A DNA stretch of 64,000 nucleotides from Plumapathes pennacea (lineage: Eukaryota > Cnidaria > Anthozoa > Antipatharia > Myriopathidae): the NCBI GenBank assembly GCA_964036295.1, contig OZ038468.1:19560683-19624682 (forward strand), written 5' to 3'. The first letter of the stretch is position 1. Every line of letters starts with the position of its first letter. Under the pieces are notes generated by a model that was not told the origin of the DNA, did no database searches, and saw only the letters and a program-made list of their open reading frames with translations. Shown in pieces: positions 27,401 to 60,800 of the stretch. The position numbers were made by a program, and so were the translations under genes.

Positions 27401-29595
27401 AACATCAAAGCAATCGAAGCCTCCTTCTCCTCCCACAGATACACTTGCTCTTCATTAACGTTGTCCTCTGGGAATTTCAAGCCGAGGTGCTGGTTTTGAA
27501 CCGAGGCTGTGTCAGGCCCAGGTCTCAAGGAATTACCGGCAGCGCTGGAACTGAGGTAAACGTTCAGTCCTGAAGACAAAAAGGTAGCACATTAATATTT
27601 ACGTAACAATCGATGAAATTAGATGTAAATATTTATTTAGAACACTCAATATCAAGAGGCACTAATGCATGAGTCAACTTTAGTCCGCTTACGAGAATGT
27701 GTAAATAGAGAGTTTAAGTGAGAGTTTAAACAGGGTTTCATGAAGGCGTTTGTAAGTAGAGCTGTCCGCTCTGAGAGCTTTGAGAGTACTATGCTGTACT
27801 TCCACCCTGTACTAAGAAAATACACACAAAAAGGCAAATATCTATCATGTGAACATGCTTATAATGAGGGGTACAAGATTATGACTTACCATGGCCAATG
27901 CTGAATCCAAGAGCTGTAGTGAGGCACAGTAGGAGAACCAGTGTTGGAGCATCAACAGTTATCAAGGTACTTGATTCCCCCTCCTCTTGTTCTCCCTCAT
28001 CATCACTACTGCTATCATCACCATCACTGACATTAGCCTTGTCTTCATCATAGTTTTGGTGTTCTGGGTGAGTGTCTACTCTGAGGCTCTCATTCAGATC
28101 CAAAACCTCAATTTCTTCACTGACATCAAAGAGATCACTGTCAAACAAAAAGGAACTTGAATCTGAATGTTCTGACATACTGCCTTCCTCTCCAGGTCCT
28201 TGGTGTTCCCCAAGATGAACAAAGTCCATCCCTTGGTCTTCAACTTCATCTGAAATTGTAACAATTCCAGTCTCATCATCAGAGATGCTTATTTCATCAT
28301 TCAAGGAGTATGCAGTGCTGCTTTCTGTGAGTTGTGGAAGTTCTTGCCAGTTATGAAAAGATGAGGACATTATCGAACTGCCCTGCACATTTTCATGGTT
28401 CTCCTTCAAACTGGGGCTAAAGTGATTTGAAATTATCATGATTCCATCATCCACACAGTGAGGGATTTCAGGGCTGACATCTGAACTGGCTGAAGTCAAA
28501 TCCACATTTTCCACAGCAAGTTCATCCTGCTCAGTGCAATCATTGACATCCACAGAACCACTGATTTCACTCTTATCTTCACTGCTGCTGTCTGAAGGAG
28601 TCCGAGCTGTGAAATGAGCTAGAACCTCAAATTCTGCTTCACTTCCACTGCCTTCTGCTGTTGCCATGGCAACATCAGAGGCTCCATCTGAACTTTGGGA
28701 TGCCGTCCGTTTGGAGTAGTAAACTGACCCTTGTCTGGTCTGTGAAAGGAATTGAATACATTGTAATTCTGAGTAAAACATTGTATTGATCTAAAAATAT
28801 CAGTGTTAGGGTAGGACAGGGTACCCTATTTCAGACTAAAACATATGATTTTTCAATCCTATTTCAGACTAAAATATACGATTTTTCAACCCTATTTCAA
28901 ACTAAAATATATATGGTTTTCAACCCTATTTCAGGCCTGTGTACCATACTTTGCACTAGTTATTTCAGACCAATATTAAAATCTACTGCCCTAATCAGAC
29001 AAAAATAATACCTTTGGGGTGGCATACGCCTACTCCCTCCCCTCCAGGACAACAGGATCTGTAACTGGTTCATACTTGCATGCTTGTATACCCAGTGCTC
29101 AGATATACAGACAATGCTTTACCTTCGCCAGGAGATCTACTCTTTGAAGCTTTTGAATATTTTATAACTGATCACATGACATTTGTTTACAAACAGAACA
29201 CCGGTCCATTGCACCTTCCCAATTTTTTTTTTTTTTGTGCTGTCAACGCTTTAACCATAAAAAAAGTCCATAGATATAAAGGAAATATATTAAGCTAACT
29301 GTACAACAGATAAATGTTTTTTTTTTTTAGGTCTTTTCACCATTCTAAATGTGTCTAGCGCTTTGTAAAAATATTGTTCCCAAGTTCTGCCAAAAGGCGG
29401 TTTATAGATCGCTCAGCACTCTACGTATCATGAAGCTAAAAATAGCGTAGCTGAAAATGCGACCGAAGCTTTGCAGACAATCAGATCCCGAAGAACTGAC
29501 CACGTTTATATACGCACCTCAACACTCTCGATCGTTCCATGATCCACGAAGGTCCAGTCGCTTTCTAAGTCACTTCCTTCGTCCCGTGCAGCCAT
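24460..29595 (-). CDS. CCPG1: CCPG1-like ER-phagy receptor, single-pass ER membrane protein
   Basis: Exons 29518-29595, 27890-28739 and 24460-27569 join in phase to 1,345 residues. The N-terminus reads SDLESDWTFVDHG; WTFV (residues 14-17) is an acidic-flanked LC3-interacting motif at the same place as the CCPG1 WTVI. The acidic cytosolic part includes SISDDETGIVTISDEV, resembling the FIP200-binding region of CCPG1. One membrane segment follows (TLVLLLCLTTALGFSIGHG, near 27893-27949), comparable with the GFGHFYG end of the human segment. The rest, about 1,037 residues in one exon, is Lys/Arg-rich coiled coil with a tryptophan-rich C-terminus and is much longer than in human CCPG1 (about 757 total). 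Position next to PIGBOS1 and PIGB supports the call. PBXIP1 is the alternative paralogue. The luminal coiled coil itself I would not recognise. Confidence 0.8.
28806..29045 (-). repeat. G-headed dispersed repeat, copy C
   Basis: Lies in CCPG1-like intron 1. Four units of CCCTATTTCAGACTAAAA at about 34-bp period are followed by GGGGTGGCATACGCC and TACTCCCTCCCCTCC. Confidence 0.75.
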
Positions 29596-40122: not shown

Positions 40123-43100
40123 TTATCTTGCTACCCTTGTATGACCAGTGCCTGTCCACAGCTCCTGCAGTTCCACATCACATCCTAGGTCACGCAAAGC
40201 ACCTTTAGCTAAATCTGCACAATCTACAAACCTCTGCTGTGCTCTTTGTATTAGAATTTCAGCTCCAAGCTCCAGGACAACTTCTCTGTGTTCAGGATTT
40301 CTTCCCACAAGATTACGAATTGCAAGGCAGGCTTGTTTCTGAAATAATGTGTGACCAAGCCAATTAAGCTCAAGCAGATTGCGAATTGCAAAGCAGCTTG
40401 TTTCTGAAATACAGTATGACTCTGGAGTCATTGCATACAGTCAAGCCTCTTTAGTATACACACCAAGGAGCCAGCAGAAGTATCTATATCGTAGAGGATA
40501 TTTATATGTCATACTAATCATAACAAGGTTTTGACTGATTCAAAATCACCTAATGCAGCTTTTACTATATGAAGAATAGAGAATGGCTTACATTTTCATG
40601 GTCTCTTATTACTCCCACATTTGCCGGCATACAATTTTCCATAATGAAGATATAAGAGTATGTGTGAATTTTGCCTGGTGTGGCCAAATTTTACTGTTCA
40701 TAGTCCCAACTGGTGTGAAGGGTCCAGGGAATCTGAACATAGTGTAATATTATCAACCTGCCCTTATTGTACAATTTACCTGAACTCCAACAGCATCGGG
40801 GTGAACTTGCATGGCCTTCACAATAACATCAGCACCTCCAGCTGTCACTATAGCAACAGAATTTGATGGGCTCCTCAGAGCAATAGTGCCCAGGGCCCCA
40901 CAGCCCTGTTCAGCCACAGTGGAATGTTTGGCATGTGTTGTCATGGCAGCAACAATAAGTTCCAGTCCCCCAGCTTTTACAATGGATGTCTTAACTTCGT
41001 CGCTCCCTGCTATGGCCTTGAGAACTGTGCAAACCTGTCTGGCAATGATCTTGAAACAGTAAAGAAACAAAATATATTATTTAATGTATTATTTACATTA
41101 AGTGTCACACAATGCTGTTATAACAGAGTGTTTACCCTATCAGAGATGGGTAGAATGATACAAAGATATTGTCTAGTTAAGGCACCTTCATTGTCAGCCA
41201 AGCACCAAGTTGGACGACAGCAAGTGACCCAAACCTACCTGGTGAGTAAGATTGTCTTGGAGCATCTCCATAATGACCTTCAAACCCCCAAGATCAACAA
41301 TTTCTTTACAGAACTCCTCTCTTACAGGTAATCTTCCCAGTGTGGCAAGTAACTCACTTGCAACCTCAGCATGCTGCTGGTGAAAAACAAGCATGTCCAA
41401 GAGAACAGCAATAGCACTTTCTGCTACAATCAACTTAGCATGCTCATGTGCCTTACCAAAGGGGACACTCATGTCATCATCAAATGTAAGAACTCGCAAA
41501 GCAAAGCAAGCCTCCTTTATAACACCATGTGACTGTGAATGTGTCTTCAAAATGTCTATCAAAGTTGGAATGATGTCACCCTTTACAAAGGCTTGGCGGT
41601 TAGCTTCACGTTTTATGCATGACAAGCGTATAGCCTTCACAAGCAATTCACTGAGTTTGTCTTTCTCCTTGAAATCATTTAGGCATTGCAACAGGAACTG
41701 GATTGTTTCGTTGTTCACCACATTTCCTTGTCCTTGTACAAAAGAACAAAATGCATCTATACTTGCAGTGAACAGCCCTTCTCCATGCTCTTTGCATTGT
41801 CTGCAGGCCGATAAAAGAATAATCCCTGCACCAAGGCTTTCAGCAAGTGTTCTGTTCCTTTCATCCTTGTTCAATTCTAGACGGAGCTTCTTCAAGCTAT
41901 CCAAGAAATTCCCACCTGATAAATCATCCTTTGCCAATAGATCTTGGATACTGTCCAAGGCATCTGCATAAACAGTGAGACAAAGTTCAATATTCCAATG
42001 TAACTAGAGTTGTTCCATGCAAGCTATTTTATACTAAGAATTGTAATTATAAAATATTGAAAAGGGATGTTGACAGAATTGATAATGTATGTAGCTGAAA
42101 AGTCAGTCCCATGGAGGAGGGGGAGGGGGGGGGGGGGGGGGGGAACATTTACATCTATAAAAAAGGTCTGAAACATTTTAGTCTGAATTAAGGTTGATGA
42201 AGGATGTGGGACCACAAGAGGAACAGGTCTGAAGAAGGGAATGGAAATACTACCTTATGGACTAAAACAGAGTCAAGGTTCAGAGAGTGCATTGCAGACC
42301 CAGACAAAACCCCCACCCCAGACAAGGATCAAAAAGTGTGAGAGTTGTGAATTTTCTGCTGTGAAAATTAATGGTATTGGAAAACAAAGCTGATCTGGGA
42401 GTTTAGTTAGTTCTTGGACAATGCAAAAATATTCTAACAGTTTATCACGATGCAATCTGAAGGCCAGGACACCTGAGGGGGTTACTCATCATAATTTTGG
42501 GTGGGGGTGTACTGCCCAGACCTAAAAACCCTTACCCTATTTCAGACCAAAATACATGATTTTCTATACCCTATTTCAGACCAAAATACCTGATTTTCTA
42601 TACCCTATTTCAGACCTAACTACAACATGTTGTTAGAGAGTTGTTATGCTGACTTATATTCTATCACGAATAAAGTGAATAATTCGTATTGAATAGTGTA
42701 AACGTGTGCTTTCTGACTTGCTTGTAATTGCTCTGTGAGATAGCTGCTAGTTCCGGTTTGGCACGCCAGGATTTATTGAGCGTTTCAATTAATTATTGTA
42801 CAGTCATGTGACTGTGATGCCCCAAACAATGCACTCAAACGTGATTAACTGACGATGTTGATATCATGCTGTTCTGCTTGCTGTTCATTGTCATCAGCTA
42901 TGCGCTGGCTGTCTTTTTTTTTCTTTTGTTTTTCTGTTGTTACAATTTCTGCATGGTGTTTTCTTCCATTTGCCATGCAATGTCCACGGTCATGCACTTC
43001 TGTTAAGATCGTACAGTGTCCCAGACCAAAAAGACAAAATCAATACCCTATTTCAAACCAAAAAGGCAAAATCAATACCCTATTTCAGACTAAAAATGAT

Positions 43101-54877: not shown

Positions 54878-57800
54878 TCAGCATATGGACTCTGTCAATA
54901 GTGGCTCAAACTGCAAGCCTCCTGGGACCAGTGTTTGCTCTGACACTTCTAACTCCTTCAGCAAGCAACTGAATGTTGGTCTCTCTGCAGGAATAGGTGA
55001 CCAGCACGTCTTCATCAAGGAGTACCTGCAACAGAGATGTTACATCACAATTAACATTTCATTTTTTGGTTGCCTAACAGTACAGGAATTTTTGTTATGT
55101 TTTATGGTCGGTCATGGATCAGAAGAAGCAATACAAGATGGAAACAAGAGAACTACTGCATTGGGGCAGAAATAAAGTAAACTTACAGTTGATCTGGAGA
55201 GTTCTTTGGCTGGGTGAGTCTGTATCCTGCATGCAGTTGTCTCTCCATTTGGTGTTCTTCAACACCTTGGTAAGGCTGTTTCCCCAGAGAAACCAGCTCC
55301 CACAAAACAACACCAAAAGACCACTGCACAAAATAATAAAAACACACATTCTCATTTTCTCTGTGTAACCAAGTGGACTACGGGACATTAGAAGGCCGGT
55401 GGGAAGGAGCGTTCAAAACACAAACTGCTCAAAGCAAACTCGGGGACAACTGATTTATTGACGTCAATTACACGTGATAAAAGCTGACGCAAACGACTCC
55501 GTGATCAGTTACCATATTTGGTAATCACACTCGCAAGTCCAACCTGACCACGGAACAACTGAAGCTATGTGAACTTCCTTGTGTTTCCTTTCTGAACTAA
55601 GCCTACAATAGTTACATCTGTATTACTGTACAGTCCAACAATAGCATTACAGATTGAAGTACAAGATGATGTTGTGACAAAATAGAATAGATCAATAAAT
55701 CATAAAGGGAAGTTCAATATACCCACCACATCCGACTTCTCTGAGAACAGTCCATCTTTGAGGCTTTCTGGAGCTGACCATTTTTTCTGTATTCTGGACT
55801 TTATTTCAACATCAGGCTTGATCGAGGAAACACAAAGCTGTGCTAAACTGAAATCTGCAATCTTGACAGTTAAGTCTTCCTCAACCCTAAAGAAGATAAA
55901 AAAATAAGGAAAAATATTTCAGAAAAACCACTACCCTATGTACATGCTCATCATCAAAACATCAATACAAGGTGCCCCATAATAAGATTAAAACATTCCA
56001 ATTTATTTTTTACCATCTGACTGCCTGCTACAAAACATAAATCTGCATTATTTAATTGCATAGACACTGTATAATAGGAAACTTCACACCATAAGGTACT
56101 GGATAAATCAGAAGAAATAGCTTCAACATCCCTCTGGCACTTACACACAGGTTTTTGATGACAGATTTCTGTGAACAATCTGTTTATGAACAATATACTC
56201 CATGCCACTTGCAACCTGAACTCCAAAGCTGACAAGTTGACGAGATGTGAGAGTCTGAAACAATAGGATAAACAACTACGATAAGTTAAGTGAGAGTGCT
56301 TTGAAATAGGAAATAGAAGATGTCCATAAACAATGGGTAGCAGCAGCTCAGTTGTGAGGTTCTTGGTCCCTCTTTCTAACCCAAGCTCCTGCTGCAGGTT
56401 CTAGAAGAACTTACTTGTGGCCTTGCTGCAGTGGCTCTAGACAACTTCAACAAATGACACAGATCTCCCCTCTTTGCAAGTGGCATAACAAGGTAGGGTG
56501 GTGCTGTGCGTTGCAGTGCCACGCCCAGGAGGGGCGATACATTGGGATGGAGAAGGTCCTTCATGATAATAGCCTCATGCACAAATGATTTGACAATGTC
56601 CATGCTTGCCTCATCTACAAGTAACAGCTCACTTGTTAGTGTGAGAAATATAAAGACATTTACAGTAAACTATCTAAAACATTGCCTATCTGAAGAGATC
56701 ATGGTGTTGGTGCAAGGCTGTTGTTTGTCATCCTACATCTACTGTTGCCGATGCTAAGTCAGGACCTGATGTCAGCATCTGCTTCTGCCCAATCAGAAAT
56801 GAGAACCTCTTCTTTCAACAGCGCAATGCACTTGGCAATGAACCAACTCCTACCTTGTAAGACTTTTACAGAAACCTCTCGTTTATGCCTTGGATTTCCT
56901 CTGTCAAGCCCTCTCACTCTGCCCTTATAAACACACCCAAAGGTACCTGAAAATAATATATAATTATGTCAGTGCAGTGCAGGTGGATCTTCACCTCAAA
57001 TAATGCATTCACAACAGTAAACAGATCCCCTCAACTTCATGCCAAATCTACTTTGATTTTTCAACATATTATTATTCTATTTTCATGTGGACCGACAGGC
57101 TCACCTCTCTTGATTGGTTCCAACAAATTCACTTGCCCCCGATGAATAAGTACATCAGACAACTCTGTTGCCCAGTTCTCATTTAGCAATGAGAACACAT
57201 GTTCAGCACTTGATGAACCATCTAAGGCTAAAACAGAACAAATCATCAAAAGTGATAATGAAAATCCAGAATCTTCCTCAAATGGTAAATCACATATTTC
57301 TAATCGGTAATTGTGAACAAGTTGAACTGTCGGTATGTGGTCGGTAAACGTGGTCGGTATGTGGTCGGTAAGTGGTCGGTATGTGGTCGGTATGTGGTCG
57401 GTATGTGGTCGGTATGTGGTCGGTATGTGGTCGGTAACGTGGTCGGTAGCGTGGTCGGTAACATGGTCGGTAAGTGGTTGGTATGTGGTCGGTAAGATTT
57501 ATGATGTGGTCGGTAAGTGGTCGGTAAAGTGAAAGGTTTGGTCGGTAAGTGGTCGGTAGCGTTTTTCATTTCGGATAACGTTCATTTGAAGCGCTAGATG
57601 AATCATTCACTTTTATTAACGTGGTGGCTCTTAAAAGAGCCGTTGTTATGAGTTGCAAGCCATTAGTAGCCTGCGGCGATGTCTTCAATGATTGAAAGGA
57701 ACCGGTCAGCTTGATTGAATTGCCGTTTCCACATGAACTCGTCAAGGTATTCTGGGATGCGATCGTAGCGAGTGCCGTTCATCCGCTTCAGCTTTCGCTT

Positions 57801-60800
57801 CACAGCACTCCAGAGGCCTTCGACAGTGTTGGTATGCACACCTGTGAAAGGGTCAACGAAGTTCTCGGAGTGGTTCACCGTCAGGTGAAGGTATCCATGG
57901 TTGTGCAGCGTCTGGTACGGAGTGAACTCATCCGAGTGTATAGTTGTTCCCGGCAAAATGTGGCGCTGTATTATCGGCAGTAGGGTTTGACGTTTGCGAT
58001 TTGGGACTCTGAAGACTATGGCCTGTTTTGTATCTCGGTCGAAAAATCTTGAAAGAGATTCGACTAGAAACATGAGCTAAAAATATAAAATTCGCGCGAC
58101 ACTGATCGGAAGGGATAAGAATCCTCTGGGCGAAACACAAAACACAAACACATTTGCAAACACTAGAATTATTAAATCTTGAAAGAGAGCACAAAGAAGC
58201 ACAAGCACAAATAATCTGTTTCAATAGACGTTTATAGTGCTAATGAGCCAAAGGAGGCGTTCAGGCGTTGACGTGTTGAGGTGTCAAATCGCGTAAACAA
58301 TGAATCCTTTTAAAAGCTTTTCTAAACGCTGGTATATTTCGGTGTATTTTTATCCATGAATAGAACAAACAAGATTCTTTAGACCAATAAAAGTTAGTGC
58401 ATTTCGATCCGCCAAGTTTATTGTGAATGTATAAATACGAGTAAATTTTTGGCTCACGTCCATACGTACGCGCGTCCAGTCAGTCACGAGCTTGGACGAG
58501 CAATTTTCAATTTTCAACTTCTTTGAGTGAGATTCGCCTCGAAAACAACGGCTCCTTTAGGAGCCACCAAGTTCAATAAAAGTCAATGACAACTTCACTT
58601 CGACAACCAGACTGATTTCGCTCACGCACATCGATTACAGCATACGTGCAAATCACATCGCAAATAAATCAAACGGTCTTTCTTGCTTTCAATTCTTAAA
58701 AAAGAAAATAGAACGGAAAAAAATACGTAGCAAAAAGTGTGGTCAGTAAGTGGTCGGTAAAAGTTTTTGAGTGGTCGGTATGTGGTCGGTAAAGTCAATC
58801 GCGTGGTCGGTATGTGGTCGGTAAATCGTATACCGACCACTTACCGACAGTTCAACTTGTTCACAATTACCTTTCTAATCTGTTGCCTTGCTGCAAAAAT
58901 AAATAATGGACAATAAGACTTACCACTTGGGTATTCCAGCAAGGCTTCAGTTTCATAACATGAAGGAGAATTATCAGGTGGGCTCCAAGAGTAATTTGAC
59001 TTAATCCCTAAAAGAAGACCACATAAATGTAAGAAGGGAAAGAGAAGGTTTAATTAACAGACACCATTACAAACATACCCAAGCCAACAGGTTCCCTGGG
59101 CAATGCTGGAAGCTTAGACCATTTACTACATATCTTCTGTTCCTTGTATTCAGGTGGAGACAGCACCACTTGCAGTTCCTCGTCATTTTCCAGAATTAGC
59201 TCAGTGAGTGATGTGTCACTGTCATTTGTGTTTACACGTGTCCGTCTCGCTGCTCCTTGACTCTTTGGACGGGGAGGTGAATATATTGGGGTGATTGTGG
59301 AACCCTCCTTGTTTTCCTGTCCTGTTGACTTCTTGAATACTGTTTCTTTCCTGTTAAATAATGGCAAGTGTCTTAGTGCTCAGGGTTCTCAAAATAATAG
59401 AATAAAATGCAGTTTGTAAAATGTTGAACTCAACAAATATTGTTCTACTTGGCACTGTTTTTAGTACCCAAATTCAATAGTACAGTCCCATATGGGTATG
59501 GAATAGTGGGGCCCCAAGTGCCATTAGGCACAAGGTTACTAGGGGGGACGGGGGCATGCACCCCCAAGAATTTTTGAAATCTATAACTCCCAAAGCAGTG
59601 GATTTCCTGCATTTTTAGACCATTGACTCATTGACCAGCACTGCCCCCCATGCACCCTGTAAAAAACCTTCAGTGACATGGCAGTGCTCCCTCAAGTGCC
59701 CTGAACATAAGGTGCTGTTTAATTGGCCACAAGTCGTGACAGTAACATTCCTGGATGAAGCATGATTCATTAGCATAATCCATGCAATGCAAGCTTAAGA
59801 GATTACAACTTAGCTCACTATAGCTCCTGTAAGATTTTCAATCAATTAGCAACTCTTAAAGGACTCTTCCTCTCGCACCTTTGGCCTTTGGATTCCATGT
59901 CATCTTCAAACTCCATCTTGAGCTTCCTTTGTTTCAATATGTGTCTACATAACAGAACGGTCCCAACAGCCAAGCAAACCAGGACAGTGACTCCAGCACA
60001 AAGCCCCACTACCACACTGCGTGACAGAGGAGAGGGTTTACTTGATTCCTCTGCAAAATAATAAATACATTATCCACAACAGCCACTCCAATATGAAATT
60101 ATGACATCACACTGTACTTTTTAAACTCAAAACCCAGTGACACAATTAAAAATTATGAGACAACTCAGGATACATAAGCAACTCCTGTATTTATCCAACA
60201 ACTAATCGTATATTGCTCCAAAATTAACTTGTTAGTGTGATTAACATTGTTTTGTGCACTTTACATTCAACTGACCTGTTTTCTCACAGACTTTATTCAC
60301 CATCAGTTTAAATGACTTTGTTGTGTCTGGCCTGACAGATGATCCTTGAATCTGGGTGTAGTTCAACAGGAACGACAACTCAACTGTACCACTCACATTC
60401 CCAGTACAATGAAAAGAGACAACTAAATCTGGAAACAGTAAATATACAAAAAAGGTCAAGCAAGACCAAAATCAATGACATGAACTCTGAACTGAGACAC
60501 TAACTCGGTGAGTTGTGTACCTGTTATTGATTGAGGCACAATTCCTTGCAAAGGCAATGAAGAAACTGGAACTGGGACTGCCTTTTTGTTGCTAGACTCA
60601 AACTGCATGCTGTACTTAGACATCTGCAAAACAAGAACGAGGCAGTCAAAATATGGAACCTTCAACTCACTATGCTACTTTATGATCATATTCACCACCT
60701 TGAAGTTTCAACAAGAACAATAAATTATCATAATAATAATCATAATTATTATGACTGACTTCTGGTGGATGATTTCTACATATACATCTCACAGCAATGA

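Follow-up and report, generated by a model that had tools for sequence, protein, structure and literature searches.

A Merlin-type transposon of Plumapathes pennacea whose transposase gene is probably built like a replication-dependent histone gene

A DNA transposon of the Merlin type was found at 57306-58871 of a 64-kb stretch of Plumapathes pennacea DNA (contig OZ038468.1 of assembly GCA_964036295.1, 19,560,683 to 19,624,682; the whole stretch is called the window). The element spans 1,566 bp and is flanked by perfect 9-bp duplications. The reading preferred here (probability about 0.6) is that it belongs, as a non-autonomous copy, to a Merlin group in which the transposase gene has the layout of a replication-dependent histone gene. 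The parts (promoter, transposase, stem-loop, ACCA, purine-rich downstream element) are arranged as in a histone gene, except that the coding sequence is a different one.

The element and its histone-type signals

Positions are those of the whole window. L-numbers refer to genome loci that were fetched, C-numbers to contigs. The features are sorted by position.

57297-57305, no strand: left target-site duplication, TTTCTAATC; perfect 9-bp match to the right copy
57306-57350, plus: left terminal inverted repeat, starting GGTAATTGTG; 45 nt, 96% complementary to the right end
57329-57558, no strand: left subterminal tandem repeats, unit TGGTCGGTA(T/A)
57603-57619, minus: TTAATAAAAGTGAATGA, resembling a histone downstream element, after the minus-strand loop
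57626-57641, minus: histone 3' stem-loop GGCTCTTTTAAGAGCC, then ACCA; 21 nt past the transposase stop
57663-58073, minus: 136-aa 3' fragment of a Merlin/IS1595 transposase that lacks its N-terminal region and its first catalytic motif
58181-58416, plus: 5' part of a transposase gene like that of L034; identity about 83% to the sequence ahead of the L034 transposase
58384-58388, plus: CCAAT box of a histone-type promoter
58401-58412, plus: ATTTCGATCCGC, motif of the dispersed H2A/H2B promoters of the host
58430-58437, plus: TATAAATA box
58487-58510, plus: 24 nt that remain from the beginning of an L034-like transposase coding sequence, otherwise deleted
58550-58565, plus: histone 3' stem-loop GGCTCCTTTAGGAGCC, then ACCA
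58574-58589, plus: CAATAAAAGTCAATGA, resembling a histone downstream element
58739-58825, no strand: right subterminal tandem repeats
58827-58871, minus: right terminal inverted repeat, 45 nt
58872-58880, no strand: right target-site duplication, TTTCTAATC

The initial annotation, made from the window alone, had described a 9-bp duplication, inverted termini of about 41 bp, an ISXO2/IS1595-like transposase fragment and two histone stem-loops, the minus-strand one 21 nt past the transposase stop as in a histone gene. The duplication is found on both sides and the fragment matches PF12762 (E 3.3e-24, profile positions 48-152 of 153). The inverted termini are present but measure 45 nt; both loops and the histone-like distance were confirmed, as detailed below. 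Merlin elements are defined by inverted repeats of 24-462 bp beginning with GG and by duplications of 8 or 9 bp (available text of PMC8101967). The window copy has GG-beginning repeats within this range and a 9-bp duplication, and DDE_Tnp_IS1595 is found, besides the window fragment, in L010 (PF12762, E 4.7e-27) and L034 (E 4.1e-21). A complete transposase with the DDE triad is absent from the window copy, which bears on autonomy and not on kinship. Arrays of TGGTCGGTA-type units stand inward of the inverted ends. Short tandem arrays of a related unit (TACCCTATTTCAGACCAAAATA...) also occur in the window at 28823-28934, 42533-42624 and 43025-43096.

The two loops are the sole Rfam matches at the gathering threshold across the 64 kb. 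Both belong to RF00032 (gathering score 34): 57601-57646 on the minus strand (37.1 bits, E 3.4e-7) and 58545-58588 on the plus strand (34.5 bits, E 3.2e-6). They fold well (z -2.8 and -3.4) and differ from each other by one compensatory pair, C-G versus U-A. On the minus strand the transposase stop is followed by the stem-loop, ACCA and the downstream AATAAAAGTGAATGA; on the plus strand no coding sequence stands ahead of the loop at 58550 in the window copy. The distance from stop to loop is 21 nt in the minus-strand gene, 19 nt in L034/L033 and 25-34 nt in ten histone 3' ends of the host (L039, L040, L043, L044), which are units of one array repeat and hence represent fewer independent cases. 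In the comparison with the host histone genes, proposed as a check by the initial annotation, the downstream elements of the window resemble the purine-rich ones of the host, and the flanks of the plus-strand loop, outside loop and ACCA, show 0.74 identity to the H2A 3' end of the host. By the same measure, host H2A and H2B 3' ends show 0.76.

The genome searched comprises 290 Mb in 24 contigs. The loop pattern GGCTCYTTTNRGAGCCACCA was found 282 times, against 0 for its backward control and about 0.003 expected from base composition. Among the first 100 matches, which lie on C1 to C3 and so outside the C7 histone array with its many further loops, position put 41 inside Merlin elements or next to them and 42 with histone genes (27 immediately past a histone domain, 15 at another place in a cluster), while 17 belonged to neither setting. 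Individual reading of these 17 assigned 12 to window-family sequence and 5 to something else, giving a final sorting of 53 Merlin, 42 histone genes or clusters and 5 other. A chance origin of the loops and of the promoter motif was ruled out by their backward controls.

Loops were also observed in other settings. In L123 (C2:19655305; loop at 877, reverse complement) a perfect stem-loop lies about 43 nt past a lysine-rich reading frame of 156 aa, to which Pfam assigned no family; a histone-type 3' end may here belong to a gene that encodes no histone. In L120 (C2:28740683) and L121 (C3:8541894) a perfect GGCTCTTTTAAGAGCC with ACCA is surrounded by repeat blocks that the two places have in common (91-96% identity), and neither was seen to be related to Merlin elements. 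L122 (C3:6469879) and L099 (C8:7644216) share a loop-bearing stretch of 70 nt (97% identical) in otherwise different surroundings; in L099 this stretch adjoins an L034-like element.

One promoter block, CCAAT / ATTTCGATCCGC / TATA-type box in the same orientation, is common to Merlin elements and to histone genes of the host; this resemblance was not part of the initial annotation and is new here. The window promoter (58384-58437) reads CCAATAAAAGTTAGTGCATTTCGATCCGCC, then TATAAATA; that of L033 reads CCAATAAAAATTGGTGCATTTCGATCCGCTAAGATGGTATAAATA. Host H2A promoters (L039, L040) read CCAATGTTCTGATTGGTGCATTTCGATCCGCT, then TACAAATA, and the host H2B promoter reads CCAATCATTTGACGGGGATTTCGATCCGC, then TATAAATA. 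The longest exact stretch shared with host H2A is 21 nt in L033 (ATTGGTGCATTTCGATCCGCT), 16 nt in the window and 13 nt in L034; with H2B it is 12 nt. The three boxes occur in this order in the window, L034 and L033. Genome-wide the 14-mer GNATTTCGATCCGC matches 91 times, where its backward control gives 0 and base composition predicts about 5: 22 are within 500 nt upstream of a same-strand histone domain (assigned with 23 non-H3 histone rows), 54 are in or beside Merlin elements and 15 are in neither setting. Four of these 15 were read: three are window-family copies, so that at least 57 of the 91 sites are in Merlin elements, and one is a different promoter-like stretch at C1:8852036.

Five GGATTTCGATCCGC sites (C1:8852076, 8888247, 8916055, 9206730 and 9236991) lie within 0.4 Mb, outside the known histone rows; the one that was read (L126) has a TATA-type box downstream.

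By comparison with L034, the plus-strand half is the shell of an L034-type transposase gene that kept promoter and loop and lost nearly all of its coding sequence, since 58181-58416 matches the sequence upstream of L034, 58487-58510 matches the start of its coding sequence, and the loop follows. This promoter and second gene shell were missed by the initial annotation. Copies of the same plan, with promoter and loop and without coding sequence, are dispersed across the genome. The window copy is non-autonomous, with a transposase 3' fragment on the minus strand and promoter plus loop on the plus strand.

The window family and other Merlin lineages

The search with the window element gave at least 206 matching stretches (40 of 757 candidates scored); at least 16 listed rows, the window included, cover nearly the whole element at 97-100% identity. 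Twenty copies were fetched. They are the best matches and hence biased to intact copies; a search with the perfect-loop pattern likewise favours copies in which the loop is perfect. The transposase-side loop is unchanged in 17 of the 20, cut by a short deletion in L081 and L083 and absent from L084. The other-end loop is unchanged in 17 and can pair in 19, including L081 and L083, where a C to T change still pairs (U-G); it is absent from L085. The 12-mer ATTTCGATCCGC is present in all 20. Perfect 9-bp duplications flank 19 of the 22 copies in which both ends were found (23 examined, including the window, L010 and L011). The exceptions are L069 and L071 (mismatch) and L011 (8 of 9); L085 lacks one end.

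Three longer members (L009, L010, L011) have a whole DDE domain; the 12-mer is found in L011 and not in L009 or L010. The check suggested by the initial annotation, whether fuller relatives keep a loop after the transposase stop, gave a mixed result: the loop is kept in L009, L011 and L034 and deleted in L010. The loops are a family trait and not a late insertion: a secondary insertion of histone DNA into one copy was ruled out by their presence in most of the fetched copies and in a second lineage.

Two composite arrangements were also observed. L074 (C3:22217126-22220698) consists of two window-family elements, joined or nested, with two copies of each end and a perfect outer 9-bp duplication. 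L103 (C1:9874300-9875300) holds a Merlin derivative with tandem copies of its 5' region ahead of promoter and loop.

The second lineage is represented by L034 and L033. The L034 element (C3:8668073-8669883, L034 418-2228) has an inverted end that differs from that of the window family. It encodes a transposase in an uninterrupted open reading frame of 301 aa without evident intron, 43-47% identical to the window-family protein; its N-terminal part has no Pfam match above a cut-off. Nineteen nt past the stop stand GGCTCCTTTAGGAGCC, ACCA and then TTTCTAAATAAAGTTATGATC. L033 is 98% identical to L034 in the 3' part and has the same loop-bearing end. Partial copies of this lineage keep the loop after the C-terminus, at 19 nt in L096 and 22 nt in L093; older copies at C12 and C3 are broken ahead of the loop position. 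The L034 duplication is about 8 bp, AACTTTTG versus AACTTTTT, as compared by eye with a flank repeat lower in the same locus, which looks like an empty site.

Other Merlin lineages of the genome do not share these signals. A loop after the stop is absent at seven loci (L013, L014, L030, L032, L035, L037, L038), and none of the seven has the 12-mer with one mismatch allowed. PF12762 has 34 matches on C1, C2 and that part of C3 covered by the loop listing, and 12 of them are followed by a same-strand loop within 400 nt. The spacing between loop and domain is fixed: 82-83 nt in nine cases and 46 nt in three with shortened domains. The 22 domains without a loop, sorted by hand, comprise three damaged window-family members (L010, L083, L084), one old L034-type copy and 18 members of other lineages.

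Readings of the histone-type cassette

The fuller proposal is that a Merlin lineage took over the histone expression programme as a whole, both the promoter and the SLBP-type 3' end, which would make its transposase mRNA non-polyadenylated and limited to S phase. Two divergent lineages would have retained or gained the cassette because copies multiply when transposition takes place during replication, and sequencing of poly(A)-selected RNA would overlook such transposases. On the sequence data this is held to be slightly more probable than its negation. Histone gene factors would switch the transposase on in S phase; SLBP would bind the loop, and the histone cleavage machinery would cut the pre-mRNA a few bases past it; the mRNA would carry no poly(A) tail and would be lost when replication ends. 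Transposase made in S phase would increase the net gain of copies through moves from replicated to unreplicated DNA. Such expression would favour the element, since a cut-and-paste transposon that moves from a replicated chromatid into DNA still to be replicated can increase in copy number, as exemplified by Ac/Ds (available text of PMC5371812). The window copy would be moved in trans, and any RNA made from it would at most be a short one of roughly 110 nt that ends with the loop. The first transcriptional wave of Hydractinia embryos is dominated by histone genes and accompanied by a rise in transposon-related RNAs (available text of PMC10368294).

The SLBP RNA-binding domain is encoded in the genome (PF15247, 50.0 and 39.9 bits, at C12:715899-716345). 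No U7 small nuclear RNA (snRNA) was found: the one pattern match, at C12:3046682, stands against one in the backward control, and its fold (z 0.17) is no better than that of shuffles. The contig of the window, C7, carries a tandem histone array (C7:10180700-10293303) of about 30 units, mostly of 3,665 bp. On the mitochondrial contig (C24, L125) cox1 is in two parts separated by an 855-bp gap with a LAGLIDADG-like reading frame, TGA is read as Trp, and cox3 adjoins cox1. Together these features suggest a hexacoral (sea anemone or coral).

Several observations weigh against a histone-like transposase gene. A complete and clearly functional transposase is found in none of the copies examined; L034 does not conserve the first acidic residue of the triad, and its transposase is probably dead. 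The promoter evidence comes from L034/L033 and from the plus-strand half, and not from the transposase gene proper to the window family, whose promoter was not seen. Of 27 loci of the main C7 histone array that were read, 0 have the 12-mer, so that ATTTCGATCCGC marks the dispersed H2A/H2B genes and only part of the histone promoters of the host. L010, L081 and L083 carry the loop deletion yet have moved, which implies that non-autonomous copies do not need the loop. The copies of the family are 97-99% alike, too similar for selection on the loop to be tested with any power. In the maximum-likelihood protein tree (8 sequences, 197 columns), L034/L033 group with the loop-less L038 (81% UFBoot), apart from the window family; the loop trait disagrees with this tree, which calls for two gains, a loss or an exchange. 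RF00066 (U7 snRNA) has 0 matches genome-wide, although the search gave none in any control genome either. Finally, AATAAA stands inside both downstream elements of the window, so that ordinary polyadenylation is possible.

Among the alternatives, a passive relic is unlikely without being negligible. A Merlin ancestor would have picked up a histone promoter and 3' end and carried them unused, its transposase RNA being made and ended otherwise. Capture of histone gene 3' ends, as suggested by the initial annotation, is plausible, although the identity of the flanks to H2A, set against that between H2A and H2B, falls short of proof; the likeness to H2A at both ends is in keeping with a single gene as the source. 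Non-autonomous copies that carry the signals without coding sequence, and copies with broken loops that still moved, are likewise expected of unused signals. However, the signals stand at working positions in two lineages, the promoter before and the loop 19-21 nt after the open reading frame; the two loops differ by a compensatory pair; and random capture would seldom give the right order and strand at both ends. A histone gene as cargo was ruled out: no histone coding sequence was found in the element, the plus-strand half of which corresponds to the 5' region of a transposase gene of the Merlin type.

Ordinary polyadenylation, in which the AATAAA beside the loop would direct a poly(A) tail and the loop would play at most a side role, is improbable. 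Besides the AATAAA of both window elements, L034 has AAATAAAG and a later AATAAAA, and AATAAA also follows the stop at the loop-less L032, L035 and L037. Yet the aligned histone 3' ends of the host are purine-rich at the same place (e.g. CATAAAAGAAATGA), so that AATAAAAGT..ATGA is more simply read as a downstream element, and polyadenylation would not need a strong loop with ACCA. It is very improbable that the cassette now serves short loop-ended RNAs of the coding-less copies (e.g. decoys for SLBP or for a histone transcription factor) and not the transposase: many copies do keep promoter and loop without coding sequence, but deletion derivatives that keep only the surroundings of the deletion are common for any DNA transposon.

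Comparison with known systems

Searches of the open-access literature brought up no account of a transposon that carries a histone promoter or a histone-type 3' end; in the main text of a Merlin survey (PMC8101967) the word histone occurs 0 times. If the histone-like reading is true, this would be, as far as the literature was searched, the first transposon found to use the regulatory package of histone genes. The old idea that cut-and-paste elements profit from replication would become testable at the level of transposase expression, a histone 3' end could serve a non-histone gene, and poly(A)-based transcriptomes could miss active transposases.

The elements resemble the Merlin superfamily (IS1016/IS1595 kin) in DDE_Tnp_IS1595, GG-beginning ends and 9-bp duplications. 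They differ from it in the histone-type promoter and the 3' stem-loop around the transposase, both of which are absent from the other Merlin lineages of the genome. Ac/Ds of maize is likewise a cut-and-paste transposon tied to DNA replication; it senses replication via methylation of its ends (available text of PMC5371812), whereas the link proposed here would be transposase expression.

The H2A/H2B genes of the host share with the elements CCAAT / ATTTCGATCCGC / TATA-type box and, soon after the stop, a stem-loop, ACCA and a purine-rich element. Unlike these genes, the element has a transposase as its product, is a mobile and repeated unit and contains no histone coding sequence that could be found. 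Pack-MULEs and similar transposons capture pieces of host genes, and host-like sequence inside a DNA transposon is common to both cases. Here, in contrast, the captured or copied parts are regulatory, stand at both ends of the transposon's own gene and are common to two lineages.

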